A stretch of 64,000 nt of DNA from Arenicola marina (lineage: Eukaryota; Annelida; Polychaeta; Arenicolidae). Below the pieces are notes generated by a model that did not search any database, was not told the origin of the DNA, and was given only the letters and a program-made list of their open reading frames with translations. Shown one piece after another: positions 16,987-63,650 of the stretch. The position numbers and the translations under genes were made by a program. Each line of letters begins with the position of its first letter. Position 1 is the first letter of the stretch. Where the stretch lies: the NCBI GenBank assembly GCA_964019135.1, contig OZ025253.1, positions 3,252,520 to 3,316,519 of the forward strand. The letters run 5' to 3'.

Positions 16987-17211
16987 TCAGGATTTGATCA
17001 TGCCGTTGGGCGGGACGAAGGACTGAGAGTCCTTGCTCAACATCGACACCGGATCGGCGGCCGCCATCTTGGCCTCGTGCATGACCTTGTAGTGACCTTC
17101 CTGCTCATGCTGCCAGCGGACTTTCTTGGCGTGCGCGCGCACCGCGTCGTTCACGCGGTCGTCGATCATGGTTTCCGTGAGGACGCCGGTCTCGGAGGCG
17201 TAGGCAGTCGC
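16987..17211 (-). CDS. ATAD3: ATAD3 exon 14 (terminal)
   Basis: 74 codons plus [23 protein letters not shown] onward; acceptor GTTGCAG. The tail beyond [10 protein letters not shown] is not conserved with vertebrates as far as I can judge. Confidence 0.96.
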
Positions 17212-20200
17212 CTGCAACACACACGACACAAGGATTCACTTACCTAATCACTAGGCTAATCCTCCTTCAATTAAAATCGGGTTGGTTGGTTGTATATTCA
17301 GGACCAATTTTGGTCAAATGGCTCCAATGGGAAAATGAAGGAAAGAGCGGAGCCATGTACCCAGAGTAACCAATTAAAATTGGGACAACCTCTTTAAATA
17401 ACACGATTTCTGCTATCAAGGATGTTTAAATCCCTTTGAGTTTTTATGCTATTACACTAAAGCTTAGGTCATAAATACACGAAAAAAATTCTCCCGCGGA
17501 AACGTGGTTAAAACAGAGGGAAACCATATACCATATGGCCTAAAAGGGCGACCGCAACTTTTTGGACCGGACAGCTATACTATTCTAGACTAATGTATCA
17601 AATTGCATGGGCATATCTAGGAAGAATGGCAAATGTTGATGTTTTCTAGTGCAGCTCATCTATGATAATAGGTAATAAATCTATGTGATTAATTCAGGTA
17701 ACAAAACTGATTGAAGTGATGATATACTGAATACCCCTCATACAGAAACACACATGAGACATTGTTGCACAAACCCCCAACAGCCTACTGAGAGCACCAG
17801 ACTACTCAACATCACGGTGTCCCTCTCAAACCAAACAACAGGGTGGCTGGCTAACCTGGCTAACCGAACTGACCTGGCCGGGGGAACTGGACACAATGGC
17901 AGGTCCAGGGGGGCGGGGAGATCCTCCCCTCGTGGATAGACCCCCCCCCACATCCCTACCCCCCCCCCCCCACATTCATGGATACGCCGTTGCCCTTCAC
18001 ATCCGGACGCCGGGGGTCGCACCCTACATACCTGCCAGGCGACTCCCAGCTTGGATATTTCACGGCCGGAGAGACCGTCAGTCATGGCGGCGATCTCCGA
18101 GCACTTGACGCCGTAGTCAAACTTGTCAACCTTCAGCCGTCTGCGACAGGTAATTAAAGCACACACTGAGAAACCAAAGATCTGTATTTACGCCAGCAAT
18201 TTTAAGGAATCGGCAACAGAAATGTCATTGTGAGAGGGAATGTCGGGGATTTTTCCGACTTACATAGAAGGTGAAACTTTATGTTCATCAGTCAGAGATA
18301 GTCAGAACTATCAGAAATAGAAAATATAGCAAATAAAGAGACATCTTTGTTTCACACACGCCTATATATTATGAACCTTCGGTTTGTCACGCGTTTTCGC
18401 CTGTAGGATATGTTCATTATTGTAATTATCTCCGTACAATTATGGAAATAAATCATATACACTATTTATAAAGAAATAAAAAGAAATAAAAAAATAATAG
18501 CAACCAAGATGCAGAAACAATCGTGTACTTGTTCGTATTCCTCTATTTGTTTGTATCCACACCACCACTCATGATCCAGCCTTGAGGTCGTAACACACCA
18601 ACTTATTACCTCTCACGCCATTGCTGGCTGTAGGTCGAGTCGCTACGCATCCCTTCGCCACGCCCCCCCCCCCTCACGGGCAGCAGAATGAACATGTCGA
18701 AGTAAACGCGCACCAGTCCCCTCCACACCCTCCCTCTGACACCCTCCCCTCCCCTCCCTCTGACACCCTCCCCTCCACTCCCCCCCCCCCCACACACACA
18801 CACTCACCTCTTGCCCTCCATGGCGGGCTGCAGGACGAACATGTCGAAGTACACGCGCACCAGTCCCCCTCCCCCCCTCCCTCTGACCCCCTCCCCTCCC
18901 CTCCCCTCCCTTCCCCCCCCCCCCCCACACACACACTCACCTCTTGCCCTCCATGGCGGGCTGCAGGACGAACATGTCGAAGTACACGCGCACCAGTCCC
19001 CCCCCCCTCCCTCTGACACCCTCCCCTCCCCTCCCTCCCCCCCGCCTCACACTCACCTCTTGCCCTCCATGGCGGGCTGCAGGACGAACATGTCGAAGTA
19101 CACGCGCACCAGTCGCTCGCGCTCCTCAAGTGTCGGTGAGTCGAACTCCACCATCTCGTCAATTCGGTCGTTTATCGCCCAGTCGAACTGCTCGGGCTGG
19201 TTACTGGCCAGCACCATCATGAACCTAGAGAAGAGGGAAGAGCTTTGTCACTCATAGGTCATGCAAACATCATAAACATAGACAGAGGGAAGGATTTTGT
19301 AATCTACAGGTCATATTGGCATCATACACCATGATACACCTAGATTTCCAGTATTACTAAAAAAGTTGGAAAAATCTAGACACAGGGGGAAGAATGGTAT
19401 TAATCTGGGGCTATTCAGACATGTCCTGCGTTGAGCCCCCCTCCTCCCCCCTTTTCCCCACGTGCGACTTGTGCTCACTTGTTAGACTGTTCTCCCGTCC
19501 GGTAGAGGAAGGCGTTGAGCGTCGCTCGCAGGTCCTCGCTGATCACCTCCTGACTCCGCTTCCGTAAGAAGGCGTCCGCCTCGTCCACAAACAGCAACAC
19601 CCTGCAGGAACAAACACAGGGGGTAACACTCAAACCTCAAACACTCCGCTTCCGTAAGAAGGCGTCCGCCTCGTCCACAAACAGGAGCACCCTGCAGGAA
19701 CAAACACAAAGTGCTGACTCAGCAATACAACTATTGTAATCTCTTATAGATGCACTCCTATGATCATTTAGCGTGTAATCAAATATTACGTGAGAAAGTG
19801 GATACCCTAAACCCTGGTACCTACTCTCTGCTGGTGTTGGCCCAGTCAAACACCCTGGTACCTACCCCCGTCTGCTGGTGCTGGCCCAGTCAAACACCCT
19901 GGTACCTACCCCCGTCTGCTGGTGCTGGCCCAGTCAAACACCCTGGTACCTACCCCCGTCTGCTGGTGCTGGCCCAGTCAAACACCCTGGTACCTACCCC
20001 CGTCTGCTGGTACTGGCCCAGTCAAACACCCTGGTACCTACCCCCGTCTGCTGGTGCTGGCCCAGTCACACACCCTGGTACCTACCCCCGTCTGCTGGTG
20101 CTGGCCCAGCCAAACACCCTGGTACCTACCCCCGTCTGCTGGTGCTGGCCCAGTCAAACACCCTGGTACCTACCCCCATCTGCTGGTGCTGACCCAGTCA

Positions 20201-23200
20201 AACACCCTGGTACCTACCCCCGTCTGCTGGTGCTGGCCCAGTCAAACACCCTGGTACCTACCCCCGTCTGCTGGTGCTGGCCCAGTCACACACCCTGGTA
20301 CCTACCCCCGTCTGCTGGTGCTGGCCCAGCCAAACACCCTGGTACCTACCCCCGTCTGCTGGTGCTGGCCCAGTCAAACACCCTGGTACCTACCCCCGTC
20401 TGCTGGTGCTGACCCAGTCAAACACCCTGGTACCTACCCCCGTCTGCTGGTGCTGGCCCAGTCAAACACCCTGGTACCTACCCCCGTCTGCTGGTGCTGA
20501 CCCAGTCAAACACCCTGGTACCAACCCCCGTCTGCTGGTGCCTGCCCAGTCAAACACCCTGGTACCTACCCCCGTCTGCTGGTGCCTACCCAGTCAAACA
20601 CCCTGGTACCTACCCCCGTCTGCTGGTGCCTACCCAGTCAAACACCCTGGTACCTACCCCCGTCTGCTGGTGCTGGCCCAGTCAAACACCCTGGTACCTA
20701 CCCCCGTCTGCTGGTGCTGGCCCAGTCAAACACCCTGTGCATGGCTGTCACGCCGTCTCGCCCCATGGGAGCCACGTCACCGCCAGTCATGATGGCGTAG
20801 TCCATCCCAGAATGCTTAGCGAGACTCTGGTATGAAACAAAACAAGTTATAAAAAAAATATTTAAACAAAAAGCGTCAGTGAAAACATAACTTTGTTAAA
20901 GACAGGTCTTGCTTTCTCCTTTTACTAGGTCGTCTGAAACCAGATTTACAAACATATATATATTATCTTGACCAAATCTTGCGACAATGGCCGGTAGCCA
21001 ATTTCGAGAAAATCTGAAAACGTTCCATCGTGCACTGGACACCGAGGTTACCTTGGCAAACATCGTCTTTCCGGTTCCGGGAGGTCCGTAAAATAATATG
21101 TTCCTGTAGAATCCTTTGTTCTTTTTGGTGTGTCTGGTTGCTATGGCGATATCTCGTAACCGTTCTTCCGCAGTTGGCTGAATAACGGAGACGATTCATA
21201 TTAAGATGGCGTCAGCACATCATCAATACATTCAATACGTCCGAAAATATCACATGAAACGGGAAGATAGCTTTGCTTCGAAATGGTGATATTTATGGCC
21301 ACTTTTGTCCACATGAAGGGTAACTTGGGCCATGAAACTTGCAAGGGTTTATATCAACGACCTGTTAATCTGCAGCTCAGTCTGCTCAATAACTGAGCTA
21401 GGGGGGGTTAATTTCACCGTTGCTTTGAACAACACTGCAAAATATTTATAAATAAATGTTTCTTTCTGCTTTTTGCCACATCTTAAGTCACTCAGAAGTT
21501 TCATACTGAATATCTGCGTAAGCACCAATAAAAAAAAATACGTAAACAAATATCAGAGAAAGATCAGTAATAGAGAAATATTAATTTCAGACATTATTAT
21601 ATTTTTCTTTCTGTCGCCGTAATAGCCAGCAAGCCGCGTTCAGTGACTGATGTTACACCCAACTGACCTTGAGAATAATGCCCTTCAGCGCGTCCTCTGC
21701 CTTTGTCGTGGCACGCTTGTAAGTCTAAAGAAAAAAAGGCATGCATACATTAATAATTCAATAAGCAAAAAAATAAAACTCTCATATTGGCGTATAGATC
21801 AACAGTTCAAGCTATAGCTACGGTACCTTCACTCGAAAACATATGTGTATACTATCGTTGCTCCGCATTTTGCGACTCTATATATCCTTACGGATAGAGA
21901 TAATTTAACAATATGTATGGGTGAAAATACCATGCCATCTATAGTATAGTGCAAGAGACAAAACTACAACTCTCACATCTTGCTGCCGCGCTCTCGCCAA
22001 ATAATGGTGATTACCCTAGGCAAATAAAGTTTCGCCTTGATGCCGTACGCTGTGACAAGTACCGGCGCACTCAATATGTATTAGCCAGGGACCTACCTTG
22101 ACAGGGTGCTTGATTCCCTCCAGGAAGGTAAGTCGGGACGTCTCCCTGATGAGCGAGGGCTTCCCCAGTCGGTTCTCGATGTACCGCGCCGCTACGCCAG
22201 TCCCGAACTTCGCGGCGTACACCCCAACGGCCACCAGCGTCAGACCGGCCGCCTGCCATACGGGAAAGATACATCATTAGCGGCGTACACCCCAACGGCC
22301 ACCAGCGTCAGACCGGCCGCCAGCCATACGGGAAAGGTACATCATTAGCGGCGTACACCCGAACGGCCACCAGCGTCAGACCCGCCGTCTGCCATACGGG
22401 AAAGGTACATCATTAGCGGCGTACACCCCAACGGCCACCAGGGTCAGACCTGCCGCCTGCCATACGGCAAAGGTACATCATTAGCGGCGTACACCCCAAC
22501 GGCCACCAGCGTCAGACCGGCCGCCAGCCATACGGGAAAGGTACATCATTAGCGGCGTACACCCGAACGGCCACCAGGGTCAGACCGGCCGCCTGCCATA
22601 CGGGAAAGGTACATCATTAGCGGCGTACACCCCAACGGCCACCAGGGTCAGACCGGCCGCCTGCCATACGGCAAAGGTACATCATTAGCGGCGTACACCC
22701 CAACGGCCACCAGGGTCAGACCAGCCGCCTGCCATACGGGAAAGGTACATCATTAGCGGCGTACACCCCAACGGCCACCAGCGTCAGACCGGCCGCCTGC
22801 CATACGGGAAAGGTACATCATTAGCGGCGTACACCCCAACGGCCACCAGGGTCAGACCGGCCGCCTGCCATACGGGAAAGGTACATCATTAGCGGCGTAC
22901 ACCCGAACGGCCACCAGGGTCAGACCGGCCGCCTGCCATACGGGAAAGGTACATCATTAGCGGCGTACACCCCAACGGCCACCAGCGTCAGACCGGCCGC
23001 CTGCTATACGGGAAAGGTACATCATTAGCGGCGTACACCCCAACGGCCACCAGCGTCAGACCGGCCGCCTGCCATACGGGAAAGGTACATCATTAGCGGC
23101 GTACACCCCAACGGCCACCAGCGTCAGACCGGCCGCCTGCCATACGGGAAAGATACATCATTAGCGGCGTACACCCCAACGGCCACCAGGGTCAGACCTG

Positions 23201-26200
23201 CCGCCTGCCATACGGGAAAGGTACATCATTAGCGGCGTACACCCCAACGGCCACCAGGGTCAGACCCGCCGCCTGCCATACGGGAAAGATACATCATTAG
23301 CGGCGTACACCCGAACGGCCACCAGGGTCAGACCGGCCGCCAGCCATACGGGAAAGGTACATCATTAGCGGCGTACACCCCAACGGCCACCAGCGTCAGA
23401 CCTGCCGCCTGCCATACGGGAAAGGTACATCATTAGCGGCGTACACCCCAACGGCCATCAGCGTCAGACCCGCCGCCTGCCATACGGGAAAAGTACATCA
23501 TTAGCGGCGTACACCCCAACGGCCACCAGCGTCAGACCTGCCACCTGCCATACGGCAAAGGTACATCATTAGCGGCGTACACCCCAACGGCCACCAGGGT
23601 CAGACCGGCCGCCTGCCATACGGCAAAGGTACATCATTAGCGGCGTACACCCCAACGGCCACCAGGGTCAGACCCGCCGCCTGCCATATGGGAAAGGTAC
23701 ATCATTAGCGGCGTACACCCCAACGGCCACCAGCGTCAGACCTGCCGCCTGCCATACGGCAAAGGTACATCATTAGCGGCGTACACCCCAACGGCCACCA
23801 GCGTCAGACCTGCCACCTGCCATACGGCAAAGGTACATCATTAGCGGCGTACACCCCAACGGCCACCAGCGTCAGACCTGCCACCTGCCATACGGCAAAG
23901 GTACATCATTAGCGGCGTACACCCCAACGGACACCAGGGTCAGACCTGCCGCCTGCCATACGGCAAAGGTACATCATTAGCGGCGTACACCCTAACGGCC
24001 ACCAGCGTCAGACCTGCCGCCTGCCATACGGCAAAGGTACATCATTAGCGGCGTACACCCCAACGGCCACCAGGGTCAGACCAGCCGCCTGCCATACGGC
24101 AAAGGTACATCATTAGCGGCGTACACCCTAACGGCCACCAGGGTCAGACCGGCCGCCTGCCATACGGCAAAGGTACATCATTAGCGGCGTACACCCCAAC
24201 GGCCACCAGCGTCAGACCGGCCGCCTGCCATACGGCAAAGGTACATCATTAGCGGCGTACACCCCAACGGCCACCAGGGTCAGACCAGCCGCCTGCCATA
24301 CGGCAAAGGTACATCATTAGCGGCGTACACCCCAACGGCCACCAGCGTCAGACCAGCCGCCTGCCATACGGCAAAGGTACATCATTAGCGGCGTACACCC
24401 CAACGGCCACCAGGGTCAGACCTGCCGCCTGCCATACGGGAAAGGTACATCATTAGCGGCGTACACCCCAACGGCCACCAGCGTCAGACCGGCCGCCTGC
24501 CATACGGCAAAGGTACATCATTAGCGGCGTACACCCCAACGGCCACCAGGGTCAGACCAGCCGCCTGCCATACGGCAAAGGTACATCATTAGCGGCGTAC
24601 ACCCTAACGGCCACCAGGGTCAGACCGGCCGCCTGCCATACGGCAAAGGTACATCATTAGCGGCGTACACCCCAACGGCCACCAGCGTCAGACCGGCCGC
24701 CTGCCATACGGGAAAGGTACATCATTAGCGGCGTACACCCCAACGGCCACCAGGGTCAGACCTGCCGCCTGCCATACGGGAAAGGTACATCATTAGCGGC
24801 GTACACCCCAACGGCCACCAGCGTCAGACCGGCCGCCTGCCATACGGCAAAGGTACATCATTAGCGGCGTACACCCCAACGGCCACCAGCGTCAGACCAG
24901 CCGCCTGCCATACGGCAAAGGTACATCATTAGCGGCGTACACCCCAACGGCCACCAGGGTCAGACCTGCCGCCTGCCATACGGGAAAGGTACATCATTAG
25001 CGGCGTACACCCCAACGGCCACCAGCGTCAGACCGGCCGCCTGCCATACGGCAAAGGTACATCATTAGCGGCGTACACCCCAACGGCCACCAGGGTCAGA
25101 CCAGCCGCCTGCCATACGGCAAAGGTACATCATTAGCGGCGTACACCCTAACGGCCACCAGGGTCAGACCGGCCGCCTGCCATACGGCAAAGGTACATCA
25201 TTAGCGGCGTACACCCCAACGGCCACCAGCGTCAGACCGGCCGCCTGCCATACGGGAAAGGTACATCATTAGCGGCGTACACCCCAACGGCCACCAGGGT
25301 CAGACCTGCCGCCTGCCATACGGGAAAGGTACATCATTAGCGGCGTACACCCCAACGGCCACCAGCGTCAGACCGGCCGCCTGCCATACGGGAAAGGTAC
25401 ATCATTAGCGGCGTACACCCCAACGGCCACCAGTGTCAGATCGGCCGCCTGCCATATGGGAAAGGTACATCATTAGCGGCGTACACCCCAACGGCCACCA
25501 GGGTCAGACCTGCCGCCTGCCATACGGCAAAGGTACATCATTAGCGGCGTACACCCCAACGGCCACCAGCGTCAGACCAGCCGCCTGCCATACGGCAAAG
25601 GTACATCATTAGCGGCGTACACCCCAACGGCCACCAGGGTCAGACCTGCCGCCTGCCATACGGGAAAGGTACATCATTAGCGGCGTACACCCCAACGGCC
25701 ACCAGCGTCAGACCGGCCGCCTGCCATACGGCAAAGGTACATCATTAGCGGCGTACACCCCAACGGCCACCAGGGTCAGACCGGCCGCCTGCCATACGGG
25801 AAAGGTACATCATTAGCGGCGTACACCCCAACGGCCACCAGCGTCAGACCAGCCGCCTGCCATACGGGAAAGGTACATCATTAGCGGCGTACACCCCAAC
25901 GGCCACCAGCGTCAGACCGGCCGCCTGCCATATGGGAAAGGTACATCATTAGCGGCGTACACCCCAACGGCCACCAGCGTCAGACCGGCCGCCTGCCATA
26001 CGGGAAAGGTACATCATTAGCGGCGTACACCCCAACGGCCACCAGCGTCAGACCGGCCGCCTGCCATACGGGAAAGGTACATCACTCTTAGTACAGGTAC
26101 TTCATAAGACTGGACATATTTCTATTGTTTAGTTCGACTCGTCACATCATGTTTTTCTAACGAACACCCCTCCCCCCCCCTTACTGTGCCAATATAACAC

Positions 26201-29200
26201 TTTATTATGTGGATGGAGTATTTGATAACGTGAGAGAGAATTTTGCAGGAATGTTCACGTATATTTTATAAAGGATAAGAAAAACAAAACAAAAACACAA
26301 ATATTGTATAGGGGCAGTATAACACTTCATGGCGTACTTGATAATGTTAATGTTAACAAGGTACATTATTAGGTCATTTGTATTATCCCGCTATCCATAC
26401 AGCGAACACCAAGTTATTTGAAATCTCACAATTCAGACATTGAACTTACATTACTACAAGTGCACTGCAGATAGGTATCATAAAGTTACAATATAATATT
26501 TATTTTCACTCACAGTTGCAGAAACTTTGTCCCAGTCGGACACAAATGCCTGGAATCCAGTACCAAGCACCGAACCAGCGGTTCTGGAAGCAGCAACGAC
26601 ACCACATAATCAGCGCCTTTCATTATACCGGGACTCGTGAACGCATAGGACAGAGTTATATCTCAGTACACACATGGAAGTCCTATAAGCAATATAAACC
26701 ACCAGATGGTGGATGATAATAAACGTCACGCTCGGCAGTTTGAAACGGGCACTATAACCTATGGAGGGCACATCGCGCCGATGGGGTCTGAAGCACCAAG
26801 GGTAGAGCGGAGTCATGTTTAGGGGAGGGGGGAGAGGGGCATTCTAATCTCTCCAATAGACATCTTCATCCTGGAAGAAGTGAGACGTTCGCACAGACTG
26901 ACATGATCCCCCGGACTACGGCACGATGGCTGGCCCACCAGCAGGGCTACCCACCAGGCCATTCCCGTGGCTACTTGAAAAATGACAAGGAACTGTGATC
27001 CAAGCAAAAGTAGGATGTTGGAATACAACTCAGGCAAAAGATGAAGCGATGTCTTCATACGATAACGGTTACGTTGAGGCCAGGGTTGACAACATTTGTA
27101 AGATTTCGCCCGTGATAAAAAAAATCATCCCACTCCCTCTATATATTTCCAGCGTGGCCAGATATGCATCTGGATGGCATAGGCGACATTTCCTACAACC
27201 GTCCACAATCACATGCCTCACAAACTCTCTTTTGGAAAGCTTTTCGCTTGCAGACACTTTGTGCACACATGGCTAAACTGGGCCAAGGAACCTCCCGGGG
27301 TGACGAAACATGCGCCACATTCGAACCCAGGACCTATTGGTCTGCGGTCTAGTGCGTTAACCACTACACCAAGGGGACTTTCACGTCAAACATAAAAATT
27401 AATATCAATTAATTCAATGTCAAAACAAAAACGGTTGTCCAAAACACAGGACCACGTGACCGGAACTCACTGGATGGACTCCATGATGGTTTTCCTCCTC
27501 TCAGCGGCCTTGACCCTGATCTGCTCCAGGTTGATGTCTCGGTTCTCCCGTTCGACCTTGGCGCGACCTTTGATCTCGGCCTCCATCCGCAGCATATCAT
27601 TCTTGTGACGCAGCTCCGCCTCATGCTCCACGGTCTCTGCAGTCAGAGAACAAGATTCAACCAGAGAGAAGGATTATTGTACATGTGGTCCCTACAGTCA
27701 GAGAACAAGTGTTAACTAGACAACTATGATTGTACATGGGGTCCCTACAGTCAGAGAACAAGTGTTAACTAGACAACTATTATTGTACATGTGGTCCCTA
27801 CAGTCAGAGAACAAGTGTTAACTAGACAACTATTATTGTACATGTGGTCCCTACAGTCAGAGAACAAGTGTTAACTAGACAACTATTATTGTACATGTGG
27901 TCCCTACAGTCAGAGAACAAGTGTTAACTAGACAACTATTATTGTACATGTGGTCCCTACAGTCAGAGAACAAGTGTTAACTAGACAACTATTATTGTAC
28001 ATGTGGTCCCTAGTCAGAGAACAAGTGTTAACTAGACAACTATTATTGTACATGTGGTCCCTACAGTCAGAGAACAAGTGTTAACTAGACAACTATTATT
28101 GTACATGGGGTCCCTACAGTCAGAGAACAAGGGTTAACTAGACAACTATTATTGTACATGTGGTCCCTACAGTCAGAGAACAAGTGTTAACTAGACAACT
28201 ATTATTGTACATGGGGTCCCTACAGTCAGAGAACAAGGGTTAACTAGACAACTATTATTGTACATGGGGTCCCTACAGTCAGAGAACAAGTGTTAACTAG
28301 ACAACTATTATTGTACATGGGGTCCCTACAGTCAGAGAACAAGGGTTAACTAGACAACTATTATTGTACATGTGGTCCCTACAGTCAGAGAACAAGGGTT
28401 AACTAGACAACTATTATTGTACATGGGGTCCCTACAGTCAGAGAACAAGGGTTAACTAGACAACTATTATTGTACATGGGGTCCCAACAGTCAGAGAACA
28501 AGTGTTAACTAGACAACTATTATTGTACATGGGGTCCCAACAGTCAGAGAACAAGTGTTAACTAGACAACTATTATTGTACATGGGGTCCCTACAGTCAG
28601 AGAACAAGTGTTAACTAGACAACTATTATTGTACATGGGGTCCCTAGTCAGAGAACAAGTGTTAACTAGACAACTATTATTGTACATGTGGTCCCTACAG
28701 TCAGAGAACAAGGGTTAACTAGACAACTATTATTGTACATGGGGTCCCAACAGTCAGAGAACAAGTGTTAACTAGACAACTATTATTGTACATGGGGTCC
28801 CAACAGTCAGAGAACAAGTGTTAACTAGACAACTATTATTGTACATGGGGTCCCTACAGTCAGAGAACAAGTGTTAACTAGACAACTATTATTGTACATG
28901 TGGTCCCTACAGTCAGAGAACAAGTGTTAACTAGACAACTATTATTGTACATGGGGTCCCTACAGTCAGAGAACAAGTGTTAACTAGACAACTATTATTG
29001 TACATGGGGTCCCTACAGTCAGAGAACAAGTGTTAACTAGACAACTATTATTGTACATGGGGTCCCTACAGTCAGAGAACAAGTGTTAACTAGACAACTA
29101 TTATTGTACATGGGGTCCCTACAGTCAGAGAACAAGGGTTAACTAGACAACTATTATTGTACATGTGGTCCCTACAGTCAGAGAACAAGGGTTAACTAGA

Positions 29201-51542: not shown

Positions 51543-53655
51543 GTTTGTCCACGGGAGTCACGACTGGAATTTTGTCTTCTGAGCGTTGGTGAGGTTATAA
51601 ATGGGTGAAATCCAGCTTTAGTTTACATCAACATCCGACATGCGAACTTCACGTGTAGCAGACAAACGGAAGTCAGGTTTTGTTGCCGCTGCCGCGCGCT
51701 CTGGTGTCAGGTTTGGGAACCAACCACGTTCAGGGGTCGTTTCCACAGTCCGGACTCGAGGGCTTGTAGTGGCTTCTAGAACAGAACGCAGAAAGTATGA
51801 GAAGTCTGGACCTATACAACCGTTTCTGCTAGACAAGGGTGGTGTGAATATACCTCTCAGCAATACAGGATATTTGCTTCGCTGTCGCATTTCGGTGACA
51901 TTCCCGCGAAAATGGCCACGAAAGGCTCACCCGCCCCATATATATATAAAAATTTATATTCTTTCCGTTTACGGTCTTGATACGAGCTAAATGCAGACAA
52001 CAGATATTAATGCGTTTAATTAGTATAAATATATATTTATTTGGCACGGGCATAACATTTTTTTTAACGCTGAGCAACTATTTGAACAAGATCTAAAGAA
52101 AAAAACTGTATATATACATAATTAATGTTGTTATATAGTCAATTAATTATAAGTCGATCTCATATCACCCTCAATAAAATTCGTTCAATTTATGTTGAGT
52201 ACATGCTGACTAAATTCGTTATAACGCATAAAATATGTGCCTTGAGATATATAATCCATATACAATGTTTACATTAACTACATGGCAAGCTCCGAAAAAA
52301 TCAACAAAAAACAGGGCCAAATATGCAAATATAGTTTGATTTTCGTATTAATTTAGTTGATTGGCGTTCCCAGTCAGACATCTGTCACACTCCCACACCA
52401 CGGTTTCAACATTTGCCTATGAATTAAATCGTGATTCATGTTCGTGATTCTTTAGGAGTAATTCAACTTATAGGCCTATTTAATTATGACTAAATATTAC
52501 AGCGCACATTTTATTTAATAAACTTAACCCTCAGCGTTTTAATATTAGTCAATTTTTCAACAACCCAAAGATTCGGATGAGAATTTTTTTGCATCCACCA
52601 TTCGTGTAACATAATTTAACTCACTCCACCCCTTCGCGCGCCTCCCCGGTCCGATCACTTCGTCTCAATCTCTAATCTACGGCTGGAAATACAGCTGGAT
52701 ATAAACGATACTGAACTTATCCAAAAAGCGACACGGAACGTCGCGAAAAATGGACGTTTGACACTGACCATTTTTAAAATCGACCTTGGACCCCCCCCCC
52801 CCCCCCCCCGCTACAGGGTAAACCGTGATATTCGGAGTATATCGCACTAGAGGACAGCCTAACTATAGATCGCCAAATCTGCATATGTTGTGAAGACGTT
52901 TATTTCAGTCTACTATAGTGAGTACAGGAGCGTGTCCGGGGCGGGCTGGGGGGGGGGGGACACAAGGGGTACTTATGCCCCACCCCTGCCTAAATATAAC
53001 CGAGCCTTGTCGCTGCCTCCCCCCACCCACCCCCCCCCCCCCCCTGAAAATGAAGTGAGTGTTTTTGAAAACGCCCCTTGACTAAAGTAGTTTATCTTGT
53101 GAGTTAACCCTTTATTGCCCGGCACACACTACCCATGAACAGCGACATATGGCTCTAAATTAATGGCCGTTGTGAGTACCATCCAGTTCCTTTAGATATT
53201 CAATTCTCACCTACTTGGCCAATATCTATGCCTTAAATAATTCTGTGCAATATAGCAACATTTCTGCGATGATATACAATAAAATATATATTTGTGAGTT
53301 TATTTTTATTCAACATGTCAGCCTGCCTAGCTCACATGACCTCCTTTTCAAACTGTTGTTGTGACTGAGTGCGAACGAACCACTTCAAAAATCTAATGGG
53401 TTAAAGGGTGTGCACCCAATAGGGAATGCACCAATACCGCAGCGTACTCCTCACCGCACGCCTAAGGCGGACGCCTTTGGGATATGACTACGGCTGTGGT
53501 AGAGTCCTTGCGCCCGCATACAGGGCGACGATTTAACTTGACACTTGACGAGATAAAAAGTTTACAATACCACTCGGCGCATAAGATGCTTCACTGCTAG
53601 CGAGACGTGTCAGTAGAGGGTATCTTGAAGTTAGTCGTACACCCACAAGGACATC
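51543..53655. promoter_or_regulatory. Shared 5' region between ATAD3 and AGXT
   Basis: 2.1 kb between the two divergent start codons. It contains a 116-codon plus-strand frame at 51,640-51,990 without recognised homology, C-tracts near 52,791-52,809 and 53,017-53,043, a G-tract near 52,948-52,959, and AT-rich sequence. No TATA box or CpG-island-like core could be fixed by eye. Confidence 0.45.
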
Positions 53656-53808
53656 ATGGCTGTTTCTCCCCCGCCAGCTAACCTTCTGACACCAATGAAC
53701 TTCCCCATGAAGTTGCTCATGGGGCCCGGACCATCGAATTGCTCTCCGAGGGTGCTGGCAGCGAGCGCCCTCCCACTGTTGGGTCACCTCCACCCAGAGT
53801 TTGTCCAG
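53656..53808 (+). CDS. AGXT: AGXT exon 1
   Basis: 51 codons from [10 protein letters not shown] to HPEFVQ, donor GTAAGC, phase 0. Confidence 0.94.
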
Positions 53809-56800
53809 GTAAGCTCACCCTTAATTAACCCCCTCCCTAAAAAAAACAAAAAAACAAGCTATACGTACAGGCATTTGCACAGTGTGCCTTGTGTGAGCGG
53901 GACAGGTGTCTGAATTGGTAACGATATGTAGGCCAATAACGTTACGAAACGTAATCAATATATCTAAACTTGAAAGCATATATTTAATGATTAAATGTAC
54001 GATTCAAACTGAAGGGGTGGAGCTGGTGGGTATCAATCTTTAACAACATTAATTGCATTTTTTTACTTTTCCGTTTTAATCTGACAGTTTTTCGCCGAAC
54101 CAAACAGAACGATATATTTCTTGTAATTTTCACGACATGCTGCAAACTGCACCGACTCTTAATAAGTGCAGGCGATGTAAATCTTTTTTTTTTGCAGCGC
54201 CGAGGGATGATCTGGATGCATTATGACGACCTGTATCACGAAATACGTATGCAGGTGTGAACAATGTACCCGGCTAAGTACGGGTGCAGATTGCAGGCTG
54301 CATAATCGGCTATAAATTTCTGGTGTAATTCATTTTTTTATCGATACTTCGGTCTCTTTGCTCCCGTGGTCGATGGTTTAGTAGACCATGGAAGCCGTCG
54401 ATAGTTCGGCCTCCTTGCTCCCGTGGTCAATGCTTTGGTAGACCATGGGAGCCGTCGATACTTCGGCCTCCTTCCTGTTCGTGGTCGATGCATTGGCAGA
54501 CCATGGGAGCCGTCGATACTTTGGCCTCCTTGCACCCGTGGTCGATGGTTTAGTAGACCATGGGAGCCGTCAATACTTCGATACTTCGGTCTCCTTGCTC
54601 CCGTGGCCGATGCTTTGGTAGACCATGGGAGCCGTCGATACTTTGGCCTCCTTGCACCCGTGGTCGATGGTTTAGTAGACCATGGGAGCCGTCAATACTT
54701 CGATACTTCGGTCTCCTTGCTCCCGTGGTCGATGCTTTGGTAGACCATGGCAGCCGTCAATACTTCGGCCTCTTGCTCCCGTGGTCAATGCAATGGTAGA
54801 CCATGGGAGCCGTCGATACTTTGGCCTCCTTGCACCCGTGGTCGATGCTTTGGTAGACCATGGGAGCCATCGATACTTCGGCCTCCTTGCTCCCGTGGTC
54901 GATGCTTTGGTAGACCATGGGAGCCGTCGATACTTCGGCCTCCTTGCTCCCGTGGTCGATGCTTTGGTAGACCATAGGAGCCGTCGATACTTTGGCCTCC
55001 TTGCTCCCGTGGTCGATGCTTTGGTAGACCATGGGAGCCGTCGATACTTCGGCCTCCTTGCTCCCGTGGTCGATGCTTTGGTAGACCATGGGCGAGGTAG
55101 ATATTTCGGCCTCCTTGCTCCCGTGGTCGATACTTTGGTAGACCATGGCAGCCGTCAATACTTCGGCCTCCTTGCTCCCGTGGTCAATGCAATGGTAGAC
55201 CATGGGCGAGGTCGATACTTTGGCCTCTTTGCTGTCCGTGGTCGATGCTTTCGTAGACCATGGGAGCCGTCGATACTTTGGCCTCCTTGCTGTCCGTGGT
55301 CGATGCTTTGGTAGACCACGGGCGAGGCCGATACGTCGGCCTCCTTGCTCCCGTGGTCAATGCAATGGTAGACCATGGGAGCCGTCGATACTTTGGCCTC
55401 CTTGCACCCGTGGTCGATGCTTGGGTAGGCCATAGAAGCCGTCGATACTTCGGCCTCCTTGCTGCCCGTGGTCGATGCTTTGGTAGACCATGGGAGCCGT
55501 CGATATTTCGGCCTCCTTGCTCCCGTGGTCGATGCTTTGGTAGACCACGGGCGAGGTTGATATTTCGGCCTCCTTGCTGTCCGTGGTCGATGCTTGGGTA
55601 GACCATGGGAGCCGTCGATACTTTGGCCTCCTTGCACCCGTGGTCGATGCTTGGGTAGACCATAGAAGCCGTCGATACTTCGGCCTCCTTGCTGCCCGTG
55701 GTCGATGCTTTGGTAGACCATGGGAGCCGTCGATACTTCGGTCTCCTTGCTCCCGTGGTCAATGCAATGGTAGACCATGGGCGAGGCCGATACTTCGGCC
55801 TCCTTGCTGCCCGTGGTCGATGCTTTGGTAGACCATGGGAGCCGTCGATACTTCGGTCTCCTTGCTCCCGTGGTCAATGCAATGGTAGACCATGGGCGAG
55901 GCCGATACGTCGGCCTCCTTGCTGCCCGTGACCGATGATTTAGTAGACCATGGGAACCGTCGATATTTCGGCCTCCTTGCTCCCGTGGTCGATGCTTTTG
56001 TAGACCACGGGCGAGGTTGATATTTTGGCCTCCTTGCTCCCGTGGTCGATGCTTTGGTAGACCACGGGCGAGGTTGATACTTCGGCCTCCTTGCTCCGGT
56101 GGTCGATGGATTTTATAATCTGGTCTGCAGACGTGTTCCCGAAAACACTAATAGATTTCTTGACTTTGTTTAGCCTTTGTGTCTATTCCTTGTGTTTCAG
56201 ATCATGGATGAAGTCAAGGAAGGGATTCAATACGCCTTTCAGACAAGAAACAAGTTGACGCTGGCAATCTCTGGGACTGGTATTGTAACTTCAACTATTT
56301 GGTGCAAGAAGATGAATAATATTTTATAAGTAACATGATATTTTATATCTTAATTGCGAACACAAAATACATAAATATACTGAACTGAAATTCAGGCATG
56401 TTAAATTGGTCTACTAGCATGAGACAGAATAGGGCTTTTTGCCTATATATATGTCCATATATACATACATTCTGGCCGTTTTTTCTGTGTCAAAAATGAT
56501 GACAGATATGGCTCAAACGTTCAAGCAAGACGTTCAGGATCTATAATATATATTGAGGCAAATGGTGTTTAACGGTTTAAATACAAATACGTGAGTATTC
56601 TATGGACAGCGCACACACAGAGATTAGACAATGCTAATGATATGTGCGGGTTGTCATGGGTGCGTCATATCCCTTCAGGTCATGCTGCTATGGAGGCCGC
56701 GTGCTGTAACCTGGTGGAGCCTGGAGACAAAGTATTGGTGGCATGTACAGGAATCTGGGGTGACAGATTCTCTGACATGTCAGAAAGGCACGGTACGACT

Positions 56801-59800
56801 ATAATTTGTTTCTTTCTCGTTCTTGGGTTTTATTGTAGATATTTTAAATTTAATTTAAATAACACATTAAAATAATTTACATATGCAGGGCTCATTGGAA
56901 CTATTGTGATAATTGATTTTATACTTATTGACGGTGGTGACTATGAATATATGTGGTACATCTTCACGACGATGAAGATGCGCTGGATGTGATAAAGTGG
57001 TTTGTCTTAATTAATGTTCATCAGGCGCTGTGGTCTCGAAGATGGTGAAGCCCCCAGGGGGAGTTTTGTCGCTGACAGAAATTGAAACGGTAATCTTCCT
57101 CTTGACCAACTGACACTGAATCATTCGTAATGGAACCAGCTGTCTCAGCCGCTGGTCTTTTTACTTACTTGTGTAATATATGGATCGGGTGGCACTTTCT
57201 TAGTCAGTCAGAATCGTTTATTTGACCAAGAAATGTAGTACATCAACAAAACATAGATATAAATGTAGTACATCATACAAAACATAGATATACGGATTGG
57301 CCAGGAGACTCCCATTAAGACACAGGTAGGTCGCTATCATGGGAGCCACATATATATATATACCGGTAAATATAAACAGTTGACAAGGTAGGTTGGGACT
57401 GCTGCTAATAGGGCTGTACAGTCACTTCGGGATCTTATCGAGACCCCACGAGACAGGGATACCTATGCTCTACGTCAATGCCTAGCATCAACGGCCTGTA
57501 CGTGCTGCCTACCTTCCGGTTGTTTGCCTTCACTCACCTCACACACAAGATCGGCTAAAGCTGTCCTTGGAAGCACAAATAACCACAGAAGTTATGTGCA
57601 TATCCGAATTATAACCATCCGAGTAGATTTATGTAATGTATGAGCGGTTAGGCAGTTGATAAACCAGAATGCGGTTGTCTCATGAGTGACTGTCAGTGTC
57701 AGGCGATCTAACGTGCTGCGCGGGGTTTTCCATGTCGTATGACGTAATAATCATCATGACGCGCGTGTCTGCGCGCGGTATGTATGGTTACGTAACAACG
57801 CTCCTTATATGGACTGAGCAGGTGAGGACAATGGTGCTCCGTTTGTCGTAGAACTGTAAACATCGATGATTTGGCTCAAAATACAACGCTTCCAACAGCC
57901 TCATCGAAGGGACCACATGCATTATGGAGAGATAAATGTCTTATCTTTAATGATATTATTATTTTATAGTTAGCCATGCCTGGACCAAAGCAAACAAAAA
58001 ATAGTTTCACACCCACTCGATTTTTCACGCACAAACCGCGCAGCCGGCCGGTTCCCAACACTAAAACGTTGACTACAATGAGTGCGAGTCACGCAGTTGC
58101 AGCAAGGCACCAGCGTGATGCGCACTCGTTCTAAGAGCACGTGTTTTTTTGTTGGTCCCCAAAAGACCTAAACCGGAAATAGAAACCGCGAGAACTGTAC
58201 AGCCCTATTACAAGCGTTTTATAGGCGAAAGAGATGGGGAGCTATATTCGATACATTAAGTAGCGGAGCTAAATAATAGTTAGATTCTTCATAATAATGG
58301 CTAAAAAATCTTTGCAAATGTCATTTACCGGTAGTCTGAATAATATCATGAGATATTACTTTCTATTACTGCAAACTATAAGCGATCAAAATGAAAAATA
58401 CAGTGATATTGACCACAAAATGCAGAGGATTACTGTACACGATGGCAAATATAACAATGAGCAATAGAACATACATTTCTGTATAGTCCTAACAAATAAT
58501 TTTTTAAATATAGGGTGAAACCAATCAAGCTATGTGTGAAGACTTTGTCCTTAACTATAGATGGAAGTGTATTCATGGTAGTAGGGAGGCTAATTCTTAG
58601 GCATCGCTTAGCATACTCATGCCTTGTAGAGCTTACAAATACTTATGTTTGTTTCTTGTATTATGCCAATGAATATCTGAACTTTGTCTAAGTGACATAT
58701 TGAACAAATATGATGGTAATGTATCATGGGATAGGTTGTAGAAGAATTTCATTTGGTGCAGTCGATGGATATCGTCTATTCTTAATAACTTCAACTGCTT
58801 GAATAGTGGTTCAGTGTGGGCATTGTATGGGCTAAGGGTAATTATTCGAATTGCTTTCTTTTGCATGTTTCAGACAATCAGTGAGTTATATAGCATTAAC
58901 AGAATTCTCTGGGGAAGGGTGTATTTCAGCCGGTTGAGCATTCCGACTCGTTTAGACAATTTACGGGAGAGTTGATCAGTATGACAATGCCACCCTAGAC
59001 GACTATCAATAATTACCCCAAGTAGATTAAAGTTCTCTACACCTACTATTTCCACATTATCCATCATGATCTGAGGTATCAGAATTTTTTTCTGTGGCAT
59101 ATGAAAGATCATGTACTTTGATTTTGTGGTGTTTAGTGATAATTTATTCACTTTCAGCCAGATATTGACCTTTTCTAATTCGTAGTTTATTTTGTTATTA
59201 TCGGTTGACATATTTAGGGTGTTGAGGGTACTCTACAGGGTGGCATCGTCAGCATATATGATGGCTCTAAGCAGATCAGAAGCTTTAGAAATGTCATTTA
59301 TATATATTATGAATAAGAGGGGACCAAGTATTGACCCTTGGGGCACACCAGTAGTGATATTTAATAGATTCGATTTCTCGTCTTCAAATTGAACATACTG
59401 AACCCTGTGACTCAAGTAGCTTTCTAACAGGGTTAGGGCCGTTCCAGTAATTCCATAATAATTCAGTTTGTATAAAAGTATTTTATGATCCAGAGTATCA
59501 AAGGCTTTTGATAACTCAAGGAAAATGCTTATGGGGGTATTACCTTGATCCAAGCTAGCAGTGGTACGGTCTATTAACTCAAGAATGGCCTGCTCTGCTG
59601 AGTGTTTTTCACGGAATCCATATTGACCATTTGTCAGTAACATATTTCTTTTAAAGTGGTTATGGATTTGGTAGTATATAATTTTTTCGAAGACTTTAGA
59701 GATTGCCGGAAGAAGTGATATGGGGCGATAGTTTTCCAGTTTCGTATCCAATCCACTTTTGTAGGTTAGGATAACTTTTGCTACTTTAAGTTTCTCCTGG

Positions 59801-60980
59801 AATATGCCTGTAGTCAAGGATTGGTTTATTATTATTGCTATGGCTTCACTTACTTCACATTTTATTTCTTTTAACAAGATAGTGGATAATTCATCATACC
59901 CACTGCTTGACTTAAACTTCAGTTTATTTATAGTATCCTCCACATCTTTTTTATTGATGAGTGACAGACTTATTTCACATTCACACAAGTATTGTGTAAA
60001 CGTTTTACCTTCAGGAGAGTTAATTGCCCGTGCTAAATTGGGGCCGATATTTGTAAAGTAATGGTTAAAGGCATTTGCTATTTGCGCTCTATCATCTATT
60101 CTTTTAGAGTCTATGTCATAGTACTTGGGAGCCAATTCTTTGCAAAATGATTTACAAAGTACCGTGTTTATAGTTTTCCATGTTTGTTTCATGTCAGACT
60201 TGTATTTTTGAAAGAGATAGTCATAATGATGTTTTTGGGCTAAGCGTATATTTTTGGTAAGGATGCGGTTATACGTCGAGAGGTTGGTCTTTAACGTCAG
60301 GTACTCAGGGGAAGTGGGCGAAGTCTGTTTTAGCTTCTTATACAATACAACCCTCATAGACTAGAAGCTTGTCTTTTTTTCAAAACTAACGTAATTCTGC
60401 TTTAATAGGAGATGGTCAAGGTTTTATTTTGGCGCCGAATCCCGTTTAAACTACATTTAATAGTGGTACGACGGATTGGCCATAAGAAAATGCATCATCT
60501 GCACATTGGTGAATTGAATAGTCAAACGGTTGAGTGTGCACAATTACGCTATACGGTATGCACACTTGTACCATGGAATATTAAAACGTGATCGTCCCCC
60601 ATTGATATCGCTGTAGCTCTTTGTGCGTGAAATGGCAAGTAACAATGATAATTACGGTATAGGCAATATTTCATTTCTATATGACACCGAGCCGTGGCTT
60701 AGATCGAGCTAGTACATACGATATCAAAAAGACGACTGATATCCACGTGATTTCCTTCATTCTTACAACAACGTTTTAGTGCCGACTCTTTATCTGTATC
60801 AAGTGTTATAGAATGTTAAAAGTATAACGCATCTATCCTTGCAATTGTATGTCAACAAGTTGTTTACCTACCGCCGCAGAACCTAAAGTCGGTCAGACCG
60901 GCCGTAATGTTCATCACCCAAGGCGAGAGCTCCAGCGCTACACTACAGCCCCTGGAAGGCATAGGAGCTCTCTGTCACAG
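53656..60980 (+). CDS. AGXT: AGXT, alanine-glyoxylate aminotransferase, exons 1-5 (3' part outside window)
   Basis: Five exons joined in consistent phase give 170 residues of an enzyme of about 390. AGXT is a PLP-dependent class V aminotransferase that converts glyoxylate plus alanine to glycine plus pyruvate in peroxisomes or mitochondria. Seen: MGPGPSN (22-28), [45 protein letters not shown] and the [19 protein letters not shown] substrate/PLP-binding segment. The PLP lysine is further downstream and not in this window. A start at 53,656 gives a short N-terminus without an obvious mitochondrial presequence. Exon 5's 3' end is amplified as a 74-bp array. Intron 4 holds a hAT-like element and a LINE remnant. 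Confidence 0.95.
54199..54255 (+). CDS. Possible cassette exon in AGXT intron 1
   Basis: 57 nt, in phase with exon 1, open ([19 protein letters not shown]), preceded by a strong polypyrimidine tract and TTTGCAG and followed by GTGTGA. Not part of the conserved AGXT protein, so it may be a chance match. Confidence 0.2.
54341..56108. repeat. 57-bp minisatellite in AGXT intron 1, about 31 copies
   Basis: Unit about 57 bp containing GTGGTCGATGCTTTGGTAGA, CCATGGGAGCCGTCGATACT and TCGGCCTCCTTGCTCCC. 57 is divisible by 3, so frames stay open on both strands without coding meaning. No exon sequence in the unit, unlike the boundary arrays. Confidence 0.96.
56201..56279 (+). CDS. AGXT: AGXT exon 2
   Basis: 79 nt, [20 protein letters not shown] onward to SGT; acceptor TGTTTCAG, donor GTATTG. 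Confidence 0.95.
56679..56792 (+). CDS. AGXT: AGXT exon 3
   Basis: 114 nt, [20 protein letters not shown] through SERH; acceptor CCCTTCAG, donor GTACGA. Confidence 0.95.
57025..57089 (+). CDS. AGXT: AGXT exon 4
   Basis: 65 nt, [21 protein letters not shown]; acceptor TCATCAG, donor GTAATC, phase 0. Confidence 0.93.
57406..58210. mobile_element. About 0.8-kb non-autonomous element, hAT-like ends
   Basis: TAATAGGGCTGTACAGT at 57,406 and its exact inverse ending at 58,210. TAGGGCTGT-type termini resemble hAT elements, but no 8-bp duplication is evident. No transposase inside. Lies in AGXT intron 4. Confidence 0.55.
58633..60357 (-). pseudogene. 5'-truncated LINE remnant (reverse transcriptase, Jockey/CR1-like group)
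   Basis: Minus-strand reverse transcriptase in AGXT intron 4. Visible motifs: [68 protein letters not shown] and the YADD box, then thumb/connection sequence. Several defects show it is dead: the catalytic-type Asp before LSKAFD is Glu, a TAG follows YADDATL at 59,233-59,235, and near 58,867-58,872 a stop coincides with loss of a block before MQKKAIRII. The endonuclease part is missing. Confidence 0.9.
60880..60980 (+). CDS. AGXT: AGXT exon 5
   Basis: 101 nt, [20 protein letters not shown] through GALCH; acceptor CGCCGCAG, donor GTAAAT, phase 2. Its last 56 nt and donor are the first copy of the array at 60,925-63,650. Confidence 0.95.
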
Positions 60981-63650
60981 GTAAATACCCATTAAAGTGA
61001 GAGTTCCAGCGCTACACTACAGCCTCTGGAAGGAGTAGGAGCTCTCTGTCACAGGTAAATACCCATTAAAGGGAGAGTTCCAGCGCTACACTACAGCCCC
61101 TGGAAGGCATAGGAGCTCTCTGTCACAGGTAAATACCCATTAAAGTGAGAGTTCCAGCGCTACACTACAGTCTCTGGAAGGCATAGGAGCTCTCTGTCAC
61201 AGGTAAATACCCATTAAAGTGAGAGTTCCAGCGCTACACTACAGCCTCTGGAAGGCATAGGAGCTCTCTGTCACAGGTAAATACCCATTAAAGTGAGAGT
61301 TCCAGCGCTACACTACAGCCTCTGGAAGGGGTAGGAGCTCTCTGTCACAGGTAAATACCCATTAAAGTGAGAGTTCCAGCGCTACACTACAGCCTCTGGA
61401 AGGGGTAGGAGCTCTCTGTCACAGGTAAATACCCATTAAAGTGAGAGTTCCAGCGCTACACTACAGCCTCTGGAAGGGGTAGGAGCTCTCTGTCACAGGT
61501 AAATACCCATTAAAGTGAGAGTTCCAGCGCTACACTACAGCATCTGGAAGGCGTAGGAGCTCTCTGTCACAGGTAAATACCCATTAAAGTGAGAGTTCCA
61601 GCGCTACACTACAGCCTCTGGAAGGGGTAGGAGCTCTCTGTCACAGGTAAATACCCATTAAAGTGAGAGTTCCAGCGCTACACTACAGCCTCTGGAAGGG
61701 GTAGGAGCTCTCTGTCACAGGTAAATACCCATTAAAGTGAGAGTTCCAGCGCTACACTACAGCCTCTGGAAGGGGTAGGAGCTCTCTGTCACAGGTAAAT
61801 ACCCATTAAAGTGAGAGTTCCAGCGCTACACTACAGCCTCTGGAAGGGGTAGGAGCTCTCTGTCACAGGTAAATACCCATTAAAGTGAGAGTTCCAGCGC
61901 TACACTACAGTCTCTGGAAGGGGTAGGAGCTCTCTGTCACAGGTAAATACCCATTAAAGTGAGAGTTCCAGCGCTACACTACAGCCTCTGGAAGGGGTAG
62001 GAGCTCTCTGTCACAGGTAAATACCCATTAAAGTGAGAGTTCCAGCGCTACACTACAGCCTCTGGAAGGGGTATGAGCTCTCTGTCACAGGTAAATACCC
62101 ATTAAAGTGAGAGTTCCAGCGCTACACTACAGCCTCTGGAAGGAGTAGGAGCTCTCTGTCACAGGTAAATACCCATTAAAGTGAGAGTTCCAGCGCTACA
62201 CTACAGCCTCTGGAAGGGGTATGAGCTCTCTGTCACAGGTAAATACCCATTAAAGTGAGAGTTCCAGCGCTACACTACAGCATCTGGAAGGCGTAGGAGC
62301 TCTCTGTCACAGGTAAATACCCATTAAAGTGAGAGTTCCAGGGCTACACTACAGCCTCTGGAAGGGGTATGAGCTCTCTGTCACAGGTAAATACCCATTA
62401 AAGTGAGAGTTCCAGCGCTACACTACAGCCTCTGGAAGGGGTAGGAGCTCTCTGTCACAGGTAAATACCCATTAAAGTGAGAGTTCCAGGGCTACACTAC
62501 AGCCTCTGGAAGGGGTATGAGCTCTCTGTCACAGGTAAATACCCATTAAAGTGAGAGTTCCAGCGCTACACTACAGCATCTGGAAGGCGTAGGAGCTCTC
62601 TGTCACAGGTAAATACCCATTAAAGTGAGAGTTCCAGGGCTACACTACAGCCTCTGGAAGGGGTATGAGCTCTCTGTCACAGGTAAATACCCATTAAAGT
62701 GAGAGTTCCAGCGCTACACTACAGCCTCTGGAAGGGGTAGGAGCTCTCTGTCACAGGTAAATACCCATTAAAGTGAGAGTTCCAGGGCTACACTACAGCC
62801 TCTGGAAGGGGTAGGAGCTCTCTGTCACAGGTAAATACCCATTAAAGTGAGAGTTCCAGCGCTACACTACAGCATCTGGAAGGCGTAGGAGCTCTCTGTC
62901 ACAGGTAAATACCCATTAAAGTGAGAGTTCCAGCGCTACACTACAGCCTCTGGAAGGGGTATGAGCTCTCTGTCACAGGTAAATACCCATTAAAGTGAGA
63001 GTTCCAGCGCTACACTACAGCATCTGGAAGGCGTAGGAGCTCTCTGTCACAGGTAAATACCCATTAAAGTGAGAGTTCCAGGGCTACACTACAGCCTCTG
63101 GAAGGGGTAGGAGCTCTCTGTCACAGGTAAATACCCATTAAAGTGAGAGTTCCAGGGCTACACTACAGCCTCTGGAAGGGGTAGGAGCTCTCTGTCACAG
63201 GTAAATACCCATTAAAGTGAGAGTTCCAGCGCTACACTACAGCCTCTGGAAGGGGTAGGAGCTCTCTGTCATAGGTAAATACCCATTAAAGTGAGAGTTC
63301 CAGCGCTACACTACAGCCTCTGGAAGGGGTAGGAGCTCTCTGTCACAGGTAAATACCCATTAAAGTGAGAGTTCCAGGGCTACACTACAGCCTCTGGAAG
63401 GGGTATGAGCTCTCTGTCACAGGTAAATACCCATTAAAGTGAGAGTTCCAGGGCTACACTACAGCCTCTGGAAGGGGTATGAGCTCTCTGTCACAGGTAA
63501 ATACCCATTAAAGTGAGAGTTCCAGCGCTACACTACAGCCTCTGGAAGGGGTAGGAGCTCTCTGTCACAGGTAAATACTCATTAAAGTGAGAGTTCCAGC
63601 GCTACACTACAGCCTCTGGAAGGGGTAGGAGCTCTCTGTCACAGGTAAAC
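60925..63650 (+). repeat. 74-bp array of AGXT exon 5 end plus 5' splice site, about 37 copies
   Basis: Each monomer carries about 56 nt of exon 5 (CCAGCGCTACACTACAGCCT, then GGAGCTCTCTGTCACAG) followed by donor GTAAATACCCATTAAAGT. The first copy is the true exon 5 junction. Copies vary at a few positions (GGGGTAG, GGCGTAG, GGGCTAC). Confidence 0.98.

Follow-up and report, generated by a model that had tools for sequence, protein, structure and literature searches.

The question raised by this locus is why tandem repeats should lie across the splice junctions of two neighbouring genes, and how those genes could still yield protein. We examined a 64 kb stretch of the Arenicola marina genome (the window) containing ATAD3 and the 5' part of AGXT. 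Arrays were detected with TRF and a lag scan of the window, which gave 20 arrays at one setting and 21 at another, and by a scan centred on the 35 ATAD3 and AGXT junctions with ungapped lags of 10-199, in which a nested transposon gene was scored separately. Tandem arrays extended into the intron at six of the 35 junctions, three donors and three acceptors (A1-A6; Table 1). The six array junctions scored 58-148, the acceptor of ATAD3 exon 12 scored 13 and the other 28 scored 9 or less. These results confirm that the assembled sequence carries junction arrays in ATAD3 and AGXT. They also bear out the preliminary description of this DNA, which had claimed six arrays at both types of site, with about 2, 4, 21, 37, 57 and 90 copies (about 4, 2, 21, 57, 91 and 37 for A1-A6 here) and units of 44, 53, 68, 74, 90 and about 115-137 bp, lengths with which TRF and the lag scan agree. 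Copy numbers are given as assembled.

Table 1 Gene models and junction arrays, in window positions
Feature	Position	Strand	Description
ATAD3 gene	16987..51542	minus	14 exons; complete 615-aa ORF, GT-AG junctions
ATAD3 exons 1-7	51329-51542, 50040-50116, 33177-33338, 32811-32880, 27471-27636, 26514-26583, 22097-22252	minus	Rebuilt model
ATAD3 exons 8-14	21668-21724, 21052-21177, 20702-20826, 19479-19601, 19057-19224, 18032-18140, 16987-17211	minus	Rebuilt model
AGXT exons 1-5	53656-53808, 56201-56279, 56679-56792, 57025-57089, 60880-60980	plus	Rebuilt model
A1, donor of ATAD3 exon 12	18667..19125	minus	~4 copies, spacings 116, 133 and ~147 bp; ~58 bp exonic
A2, acceptor of ATAD3 exon 11	19553..19708	minus	2 copies, 90 bp apart; ~49 bp exonic
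A3, donor of ATAD3 exon 10	19811..20737	minus	21 copies x 44 bp (32 exonic + 12 intronic)
A4, acceptor of ATAD3 exon 7	22209..26084	minus	57 copies x 68 bp (27 intronic + 41 exonic)
A5, acceptor of ATAD3 exon 5	27632..32618	minus	91 copies x 53 bp to 32459; ~5 exonic bases
A6, donor of AGXT exon 5	60920..63649	plus	37 copies x 74 bp (56 exonic + 18 intronic)
A7 (probable only), acceptor of ATAD3 exon 12	19215..19314	minus	Degenerate two-copy duplication, 52 bp; ~10 exonic bases

The ATAD3 protein matched Pfam ATAD3_N (2.3e-100) and AAA (1.8e-23), and its ORF is intact when the exon-proximal copies are used, with no array-derived exon needed. The AGXT model covers exons 1-5 (53656..60980), the rest of the gene lying outside the window; it matched Pfam Aminotran_5 (1.9e-13) and serine-pyruvate and alanine-glyoxylate aminotransferases in the PDB, with E values down to 9.3e-60. 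With the arrays subtracted, nine of the 13 ATAD3 introns measure 100-530 bp, and in three ATAD3 introns the array makes up 90-96% of the length.

Five of the junction arrays are clear. A5 is marginal, because it includes about five exonic bases, its exon-proximal copy has diverged (79% to the consensus) and the ungapped scan starts it 29 bases past the junction; TRF starts it inside the exon. Beyond 32459 its copies are degenerate. The exonic share of the unit was 58/116, 49/90, 32/44, 41/68, 5/53 and 56/74 for A1-A6, respectively. TRF and the lag scan gave A1 a period of 116-133, and its outermost copy is truncated, with the donor context gone. A2 is absent from the TRF list and was found by the lag and junction scans; its similarity extends by eye over about 66 bp and is followed by a spacer without a match. 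A seventh, degenerate junction array (A7) is probable. TRF reports 1.9 copies at 77%, and the gapped score was matched by none of 2,000 shuffles, yet by 8 of 4,000 real adjacent windows; the ungapped score of 13 was reached at 70 of 3,000 control positions, which is not unusual across 35 junctions, so A7 is rated as no more than probable. Three arrays and this probable fourth lie inside 2.1 kb across ATAD3 exons 10-12.

We then compared these positions with chance placement. Under uniform placement in the window, 0.89 of 20 arrays would be expected to span a junction (P(>=5)=1.1e-3; P(>=6)=1.2e-4), and two narrower regions gave expectations of 1.16 of 8 (P(>=5)=2e-3) and 1.13 of 15 (P(>=5)=3.2e-3), all of these being P values from a window picked post hoc for its pattern. 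This test used the TRF start of A5, 27632, entered manually in place of the 27665 from the ungapped scan; the limits of the transposon stretch, 33985-49900, were likewise manual, and the exons of ATAD3 and AGXT were the only places where arrays could not fall. Within ATAD3 exons 3-14, a hand-chosen region, finding five of five arrays at junctions had P=7e-4; leaving out A5 gave P(>=4 of 5)=0.013. On the premise that every unit touches an exon and that arrays inside exons are purged, each array would have a 0.81-0.94 chance of spanning a junction. The nested transposon gene has 14 junctions, placed by eye on anchors, and none of them carries an array; with these included the rate is 6/49, and the age of that gene may explain its array-free junctions. 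Unit length is not a multiple of three in five of the six main arrays, and the sole array inside an annotated ORF in the window, that of a GPCR, has a 33 bp unit.

Could any copy other than the exon-proximal one serve in splicing? We ran 188 of the 206 such copies, or decoys, through an ORF test, the other 18 having altered motifs; for A6 the test was limited to extension of exon 5. None of the 188 keeps the ORF (0/77 in A5), and the 62 that are in frame by length all run into a stop. Thus, only the exon-proximal copy can yield protein, and from the ORF we infer that this copy is the splice site used. The splice dinucleotide is intact in 190 of the 206 copies of A3-A6, functional copies counted, with AG lost in 13 of the 91 A5 copies. 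Splice cores held 2 variants in 8 positions versus 1.94 expected, a low-power comparison in which selection on decoy cores found no support. As the cores vary at the overall rate and the dinucleotide is mostly kept, the decoys look as though they are ignored in splicing. The exonic parts of A3, A4 and A6 carry 12 synonymous, 17 nonsynonymous and 1 stop change, and with a synonymous share of 12/30 versus 27% expected (P=0.09), coding constraint on the decoys is not clearly seen.

When the six units were compared pairwise, the score of the best of the 15 pairs was reached by 11 of 200 shuffles, and no pair was related beyond chance. Common ancestry is therefore unsupported, in line with the independent origins proposed in the preliminary description. 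The GC content of the units is 0.54-0.69 in five of the six and 0.42 in A5. High GC is a weak mark of junction arrays, as 6 of the 14 other arrays in the window reach at least 0.51, and it lends little support to seeding from exons, because junction units contain exon by construction. A5, with almost no exonic sequence and low GC, fits an intron-seeded array abutting a junction and speaks against exon seeding. Single-strand folding of the units was not unusual (z-scores -1.0 to 1.6) and offered no structural cause, and Rfam returned no matches at gathering thresholds. Haplotype blocks recur by eye along A4-A6, a pattern from one haplotype that is consistent with length or somatic instability.

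We propose that the arrays are probably mirages, as such structures are called in amphioxus, grown into the intron from tandem duplications straddling the border, and that survivorship explains their excess at junctions. A seed duplication across the border would then lengthen on its intron side through slippage or unequal exchange, at times by multi-unit blocks. The copy joined to the remaining exon would stay under selection as the used splice site; exon definition would pick it because it gives the shortest exon, at donors and acceptors alike. The remaining copies would be bypassed by the spliceosome, drifting and homogenizing like ordinary intronic minisatellites. Junctions would be over-represented most likely because seeds prefer exonic DNA; those wholly within an exon would persist only with a unit length divisible by three, whereas border-straddling seeds would survive at any length. 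The proposed seeding bias draws on few arrays from a single window picked post hoc, and one coding array underlies the contrast in divisibility by three.

An alternative is that splicing itself is mutagenic, with transcription-coupled breaks, R-loops or stalled spliceosomes seeding duplications at borders. This would suit the local excess (P ~1e-3 to 1e-4), the involvement of both donors and acceptors and the crowding at ATAD3 exons 10-12, but we consider it unlikely: there is no common register, the exonic share differing from unit to unit, survivorship accounts equally for the excess, and the transposon gene's junctions are free of arrays. A mechanism aimed at splice signals was set aside on the same differences in register. 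Thus, of the earlier suggestion that some process 'targets or tolerates' boundaries, tolerance is supported, given the decoy ORF results and cores that vary at the overall rate, whereas targeting is not shown, as no register is fixed and survivorship would suffice. It is similarly doubtful that the arrays came to lie at junctions by coincidence, through random seeding alone. Chance is favoured by the abundance of minisatellites in this genome (20 arrays in 64 kb), by introns that are short once freed of arrays, by the post hoc choice of window and by the weaker result without A5; the low P values for the window and for both narrower regions stand against it.

Two further explanations appear very improbable. 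The arrays might be selected to regulate ATAD3 and AGXT as redundant splice sites or U1/U2 snRNP platforms, which the many intact dinucleotides would suit, but the splice cores are no more conserved than expected (at low power), A5 has repeatedly lost its AG and every tested decoy breaks the ORF. Misassembly, for its part, might have inflated copy numbers or duplicated junction copies. Arrays of 3-5 kb with 95-97% mean pairwise unit identity are hard to assemble, and a supplementary note to the amphioxus globin paper has one mirage aberrantly assembled in the genome draft. However, the copies here show ordered variants, not clean iteration, the ATAD3 ORF is intact, and new sequence data are stated to have borne out the amphioxus PGBD5 repeats.

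Provided that the arrays are real, they amount to a natural splice-site competition experiment, in which tens of copies of one donor or acceptor each carry at most 58 bases of their own exon and only the full-exon copy can make protein. They would also be a visible source of intron-length change, as junction duplications stretch introns from a few hundred bases to kilobases, and might supply material from which new introns form; mirages may then have been under-counted in older assemblies. We raise more tentatively the possibility that introns throughout the genome of this lineage owe much of their growth to arrays born at junctions, with seeds there amplified to dozens of copies, many introns consisting almost entirely of unused intact splice sites and the spliceosome choosing among dozens of nearly identical sites purely by exon context.

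Ordinary intronic or coding minisatellites (VNTRs), several of which occur in the window, form the same head-to-tail arrays but include no used splice junction. Intron gain by tandem duplication, as described in the available text for potato RdRp (PMC4974935), likewise involves a tandem duplication carrying splice signals within a gene; a new intron arises there, whereas here existing introns lengthen. A new spliced intron or exon from a duplicated segment is not indicated by our models, in which the ATAD3 ORF is complete without an array exon and AGXT is covered for exons 1-5. The closest counterpart is the amphioxus 'mirages', a precedent named in the preliminary description that proved genuine. 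In the available text of two papers (PMC3087553, PMC3902484), they are described at Adh3, the globins BflGb6 and BflGb9, PGBD5 and troponin C, with retinol dehydrogenase and presenilin cited as loci of similar structure. Their units measure 10-72 bp in Adh3, 60 and 108 bp in PGBD5 and 150-160 bp in the globins; stated copy numbers are 2-7, with no figure in that text for Adh3 or troponin C, and splicing is reported or argued to be undisturbed. The arrays of this study share with them minisatellite-like tandem units of variable length across exon-intron borders, at donors and acceptors. Such units span a boundary at 6 of our 35 junctions, marginally in A5; the real exon borders the array and leaves the protein as it was (in AGXT, for exons 1-5 only). 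They differ in affecting six junctions in two adjacent genes, with three introns almost filled by array, and in reaching 21, 37, 57 and 91 copies in four arrays. Compared with the 2-7 copies stated in the available text, they look like very large cases of the mirage phenomenon already in print.

Exon positions were read from the sequence, and a script then joined the exons. The 14 ATAD3 exons gave an open, uninterrupted 615-amino-acid product (Pfam ATAD3_N, 2.3e-100; AAA, 1.8e-23), and AGXT exons 1-5 gave 170 amino acids that matched solved serine-pyruvate aminotransferases (E down to 9.3e-60), for a total of 35 junctions (26 in ATAD3 and 9 in AGXT). The preliminary description had reported tandem arrays at splice junctions, and these were borne out by TRF and by a lag scan run uniformly over the window. 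TRF returned arrays of 44 bp x21, 68 bp x57, 53 bp x91 and 74 bp x37, along with a C-rich array of 116-133 bp; the lag scan found 20 arrays across the whole window under one setting and 21 under another, and added a two-copy 90-bp duplication.

For each of the 35 junctions, a score was computed for a copy of the junction shifted into its own intron. Six scored 58-148, one scored 13 and 28 scored 9 or less. A5 is a marginal junction array: it includes about 5 bases of exon, its exon-proximal copy has diverged, and it did not span the junction in a strict ungapped scan. A7 is a probable one: its score was matched by none of 2000 shuffles, yet by 8 of 4000 real adjacent windows, and its ungapped score was attained at 70 of 3000 control positions. 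ATAD3 intron 10 carries an acceptor copy at one end and donor copies at the other. Kinship among the A1-A6 units was not beyond chance. By eye, the A2 duplication matches over about 66 bp of its 90-bp period before an unmatched spacer, and may represent an array that has only begun to form. In a transposon gene nested in ATAD3 intron 2, 14 junctions were located by eye, and none scored above 9.

Features in the window
Feature	Position	Location	Observation
A1	18667..19125	donor, ATAD3 exon 12	score within 58-148
A2	19553..19708 (duplication 19553-19740)	acceptor, ATAD3 exon 11	score within 58-148
A3	19811..20737	donor, ATAD3 exon 10	score within 58-148
A4	22209..26084	acceptor, ATAD3 exon 7	score within 58-148
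A5	27632..32618	acceptor, ATAD3 exon 5	score within 58-148; marginal
A6	60920..63649	donor, AGXT exon 5	score within 58-148
A7	19215..19314	acceptor, ATAD3 exon 12	score 13; probable only
Candidate DNA transposon	33993-38882	ATAD3 intron 2	weak PHD, OTU, MULE matches in one ORF (36017-38647)
Flanking repeats of candidate	33993-34054, 38808-38882		short, GC-rich, tandem; inverted copies
Second transposon-like gene (by eye)	~39000-46750 (+)	ATAD3 intron 2	intron-containing; source of the 14 scored junctions
ORF of second gene	43203-44135		no Pfam match
Rhodopsin-like GPCR ORF	1881-7394 (+)		intronless, 1837 aa; 7tm_1 1.9e-23
Long inverted repeat (by eye)	~8570-8710		surrounds G-rich and C-rich runs
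34-bp x76 array	9711-12279	between GPCR and hydrolase-like ORFs
Dienelactone hydrolase-like ORF	13045-13740 (-)		DLH 4.3e-42
57-bp x31 array	54341-56113	AGXT intron 1	wholly intronic
Reverse transcriptase ORF	59233-60357 (-)	AGXT intron 4	RVT_1 3.5e-24; LINE-like remnant

We compared these counts with random placement, collapsing each array to one unit and allowing none wholly within ATAD3 or AGXT exons. Across the whole window, 0.89 of 20 arrays would be expected to span a junction (P=1.1e-3 for at least five, 1.2e-4 for at least six). For the two genes, the expectation was 1.16 of 8 without the transposon stretch (P=2e-3 and 1.1e-4) and 1.13 of 15 with it (P=3.2e-3 and 3.4e-4). In ATAD3 exons 3-14, five of five arrays span junctions when A5 is included (P=7e-4); with A5 uncounted, P for at least four is 0.013. 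These P values hold for this window only and are not genome-wide, because the window was itself picked for the pattern.

The array share of ATAD3 introns 4, 6, 10 and 12 is 96%, 90%, 91% and 43%, respectively; stripped of their arrays, the first three would measure about 190, 430 and 100 bp. We spliced in silico 188 of the 206 decoys (copies of a splice site other than the exon-proximal one), those with an intact motif, covering for AGXT extension of exon 5 only. None kept the reading frame open, including the 62 whose length change is a multiple of three. As the frame was lost with every decoy spliced, protein would be obtainable from exon-proximal copies only, which agrees with the earlier proposal that these are the functional junctions.

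The splice dinucleotide is kept in 21/21 near-full copies of A3, 54/57 of A4, 78/91 of A5 and 37/37 of A6, functional copies included. Eight splice-core positions showed 2 distinct variants against 1.94 expected at the overall rate, and the exon-derived portions of A3, A4 and A6 held 12 synonymous changes, 17 nonsynonymous changes and one stop (27% synonymous expected, P=0.09). On these counts the copies appear to resemble neutral DNA, in tests of low power. Blocks recur by eye in the haplotype strings along A4, A5 and A6, as would be expected of multi-unit exchange or slippage.

As the simplest reading, we propose that a tandem duplication straddling the border would seed an array, that amplification would extend it intronwards and that, as the reading frame suggests, splicing would choose the copy attached to the full exon. 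Exon definition would predict this choice at both donors and acceptors. The wide differences among registers speak against a mechanism directed at splice signals. If a unit must touch an exon and exon-internal units are purged, its chance of spanning a junction is 0.81-0.94; the excess is thus explained by exon-biased seeding combined with survivorship. Among the six main junction arrays, five have a unit length that is not divisible by three, whereas the lone ORF-internal array, in the GPCR, has a 33-bp unit; this contrast is in line with survivorship, its coding side being one array. Five of six junction units have a GC content of 0.54-0.69, versus 0.41 for the gene region's DNA outside coding sequence and arrays, but GC is a poor guide to exon seeding because these units necessarily include exon and 0.51 is also reached by 6 of the 14 remaining arrays. 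A5, AT-richer and almost entirely intronic, does not fit exon seeding.

The window holds other repeats and mobile elements. The candidate element in ATAD3 intron 2, which contains 26-bp and 200-bp arrays, is probably a DNA transposon; of its domain matches, MULE falls under its curated cut-off. The middle of the GPCR ORF is an in-frame coding minisatellite (about 115 copies of an 11-aa repeat) that seems to lie in the third intracellular loop; a Baculo_PEP_C match to it resembles low-complexity noise. The AGXT intron 1 array occupies 74% of that intron and ends about 90 bp short of the exon 2 acceptor.

The junction arrays most likely belong to a known phenomenon, the mirages of amphioxus, minisatellites that span exon-intron borders. 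Portions of two papers provide the precedent: a globin study (PMC3087553) and a PGBD5 study (PMC3902484), the latter describing splice-site repeats whose number varies between assemblies (2 or 7 copies for a 60-bp unit, 3 or 6 for a 108-bp unit) and citing Adh and troponin C. Within a comparison limited to those two papers, the arrays described here are larger than the mirages.
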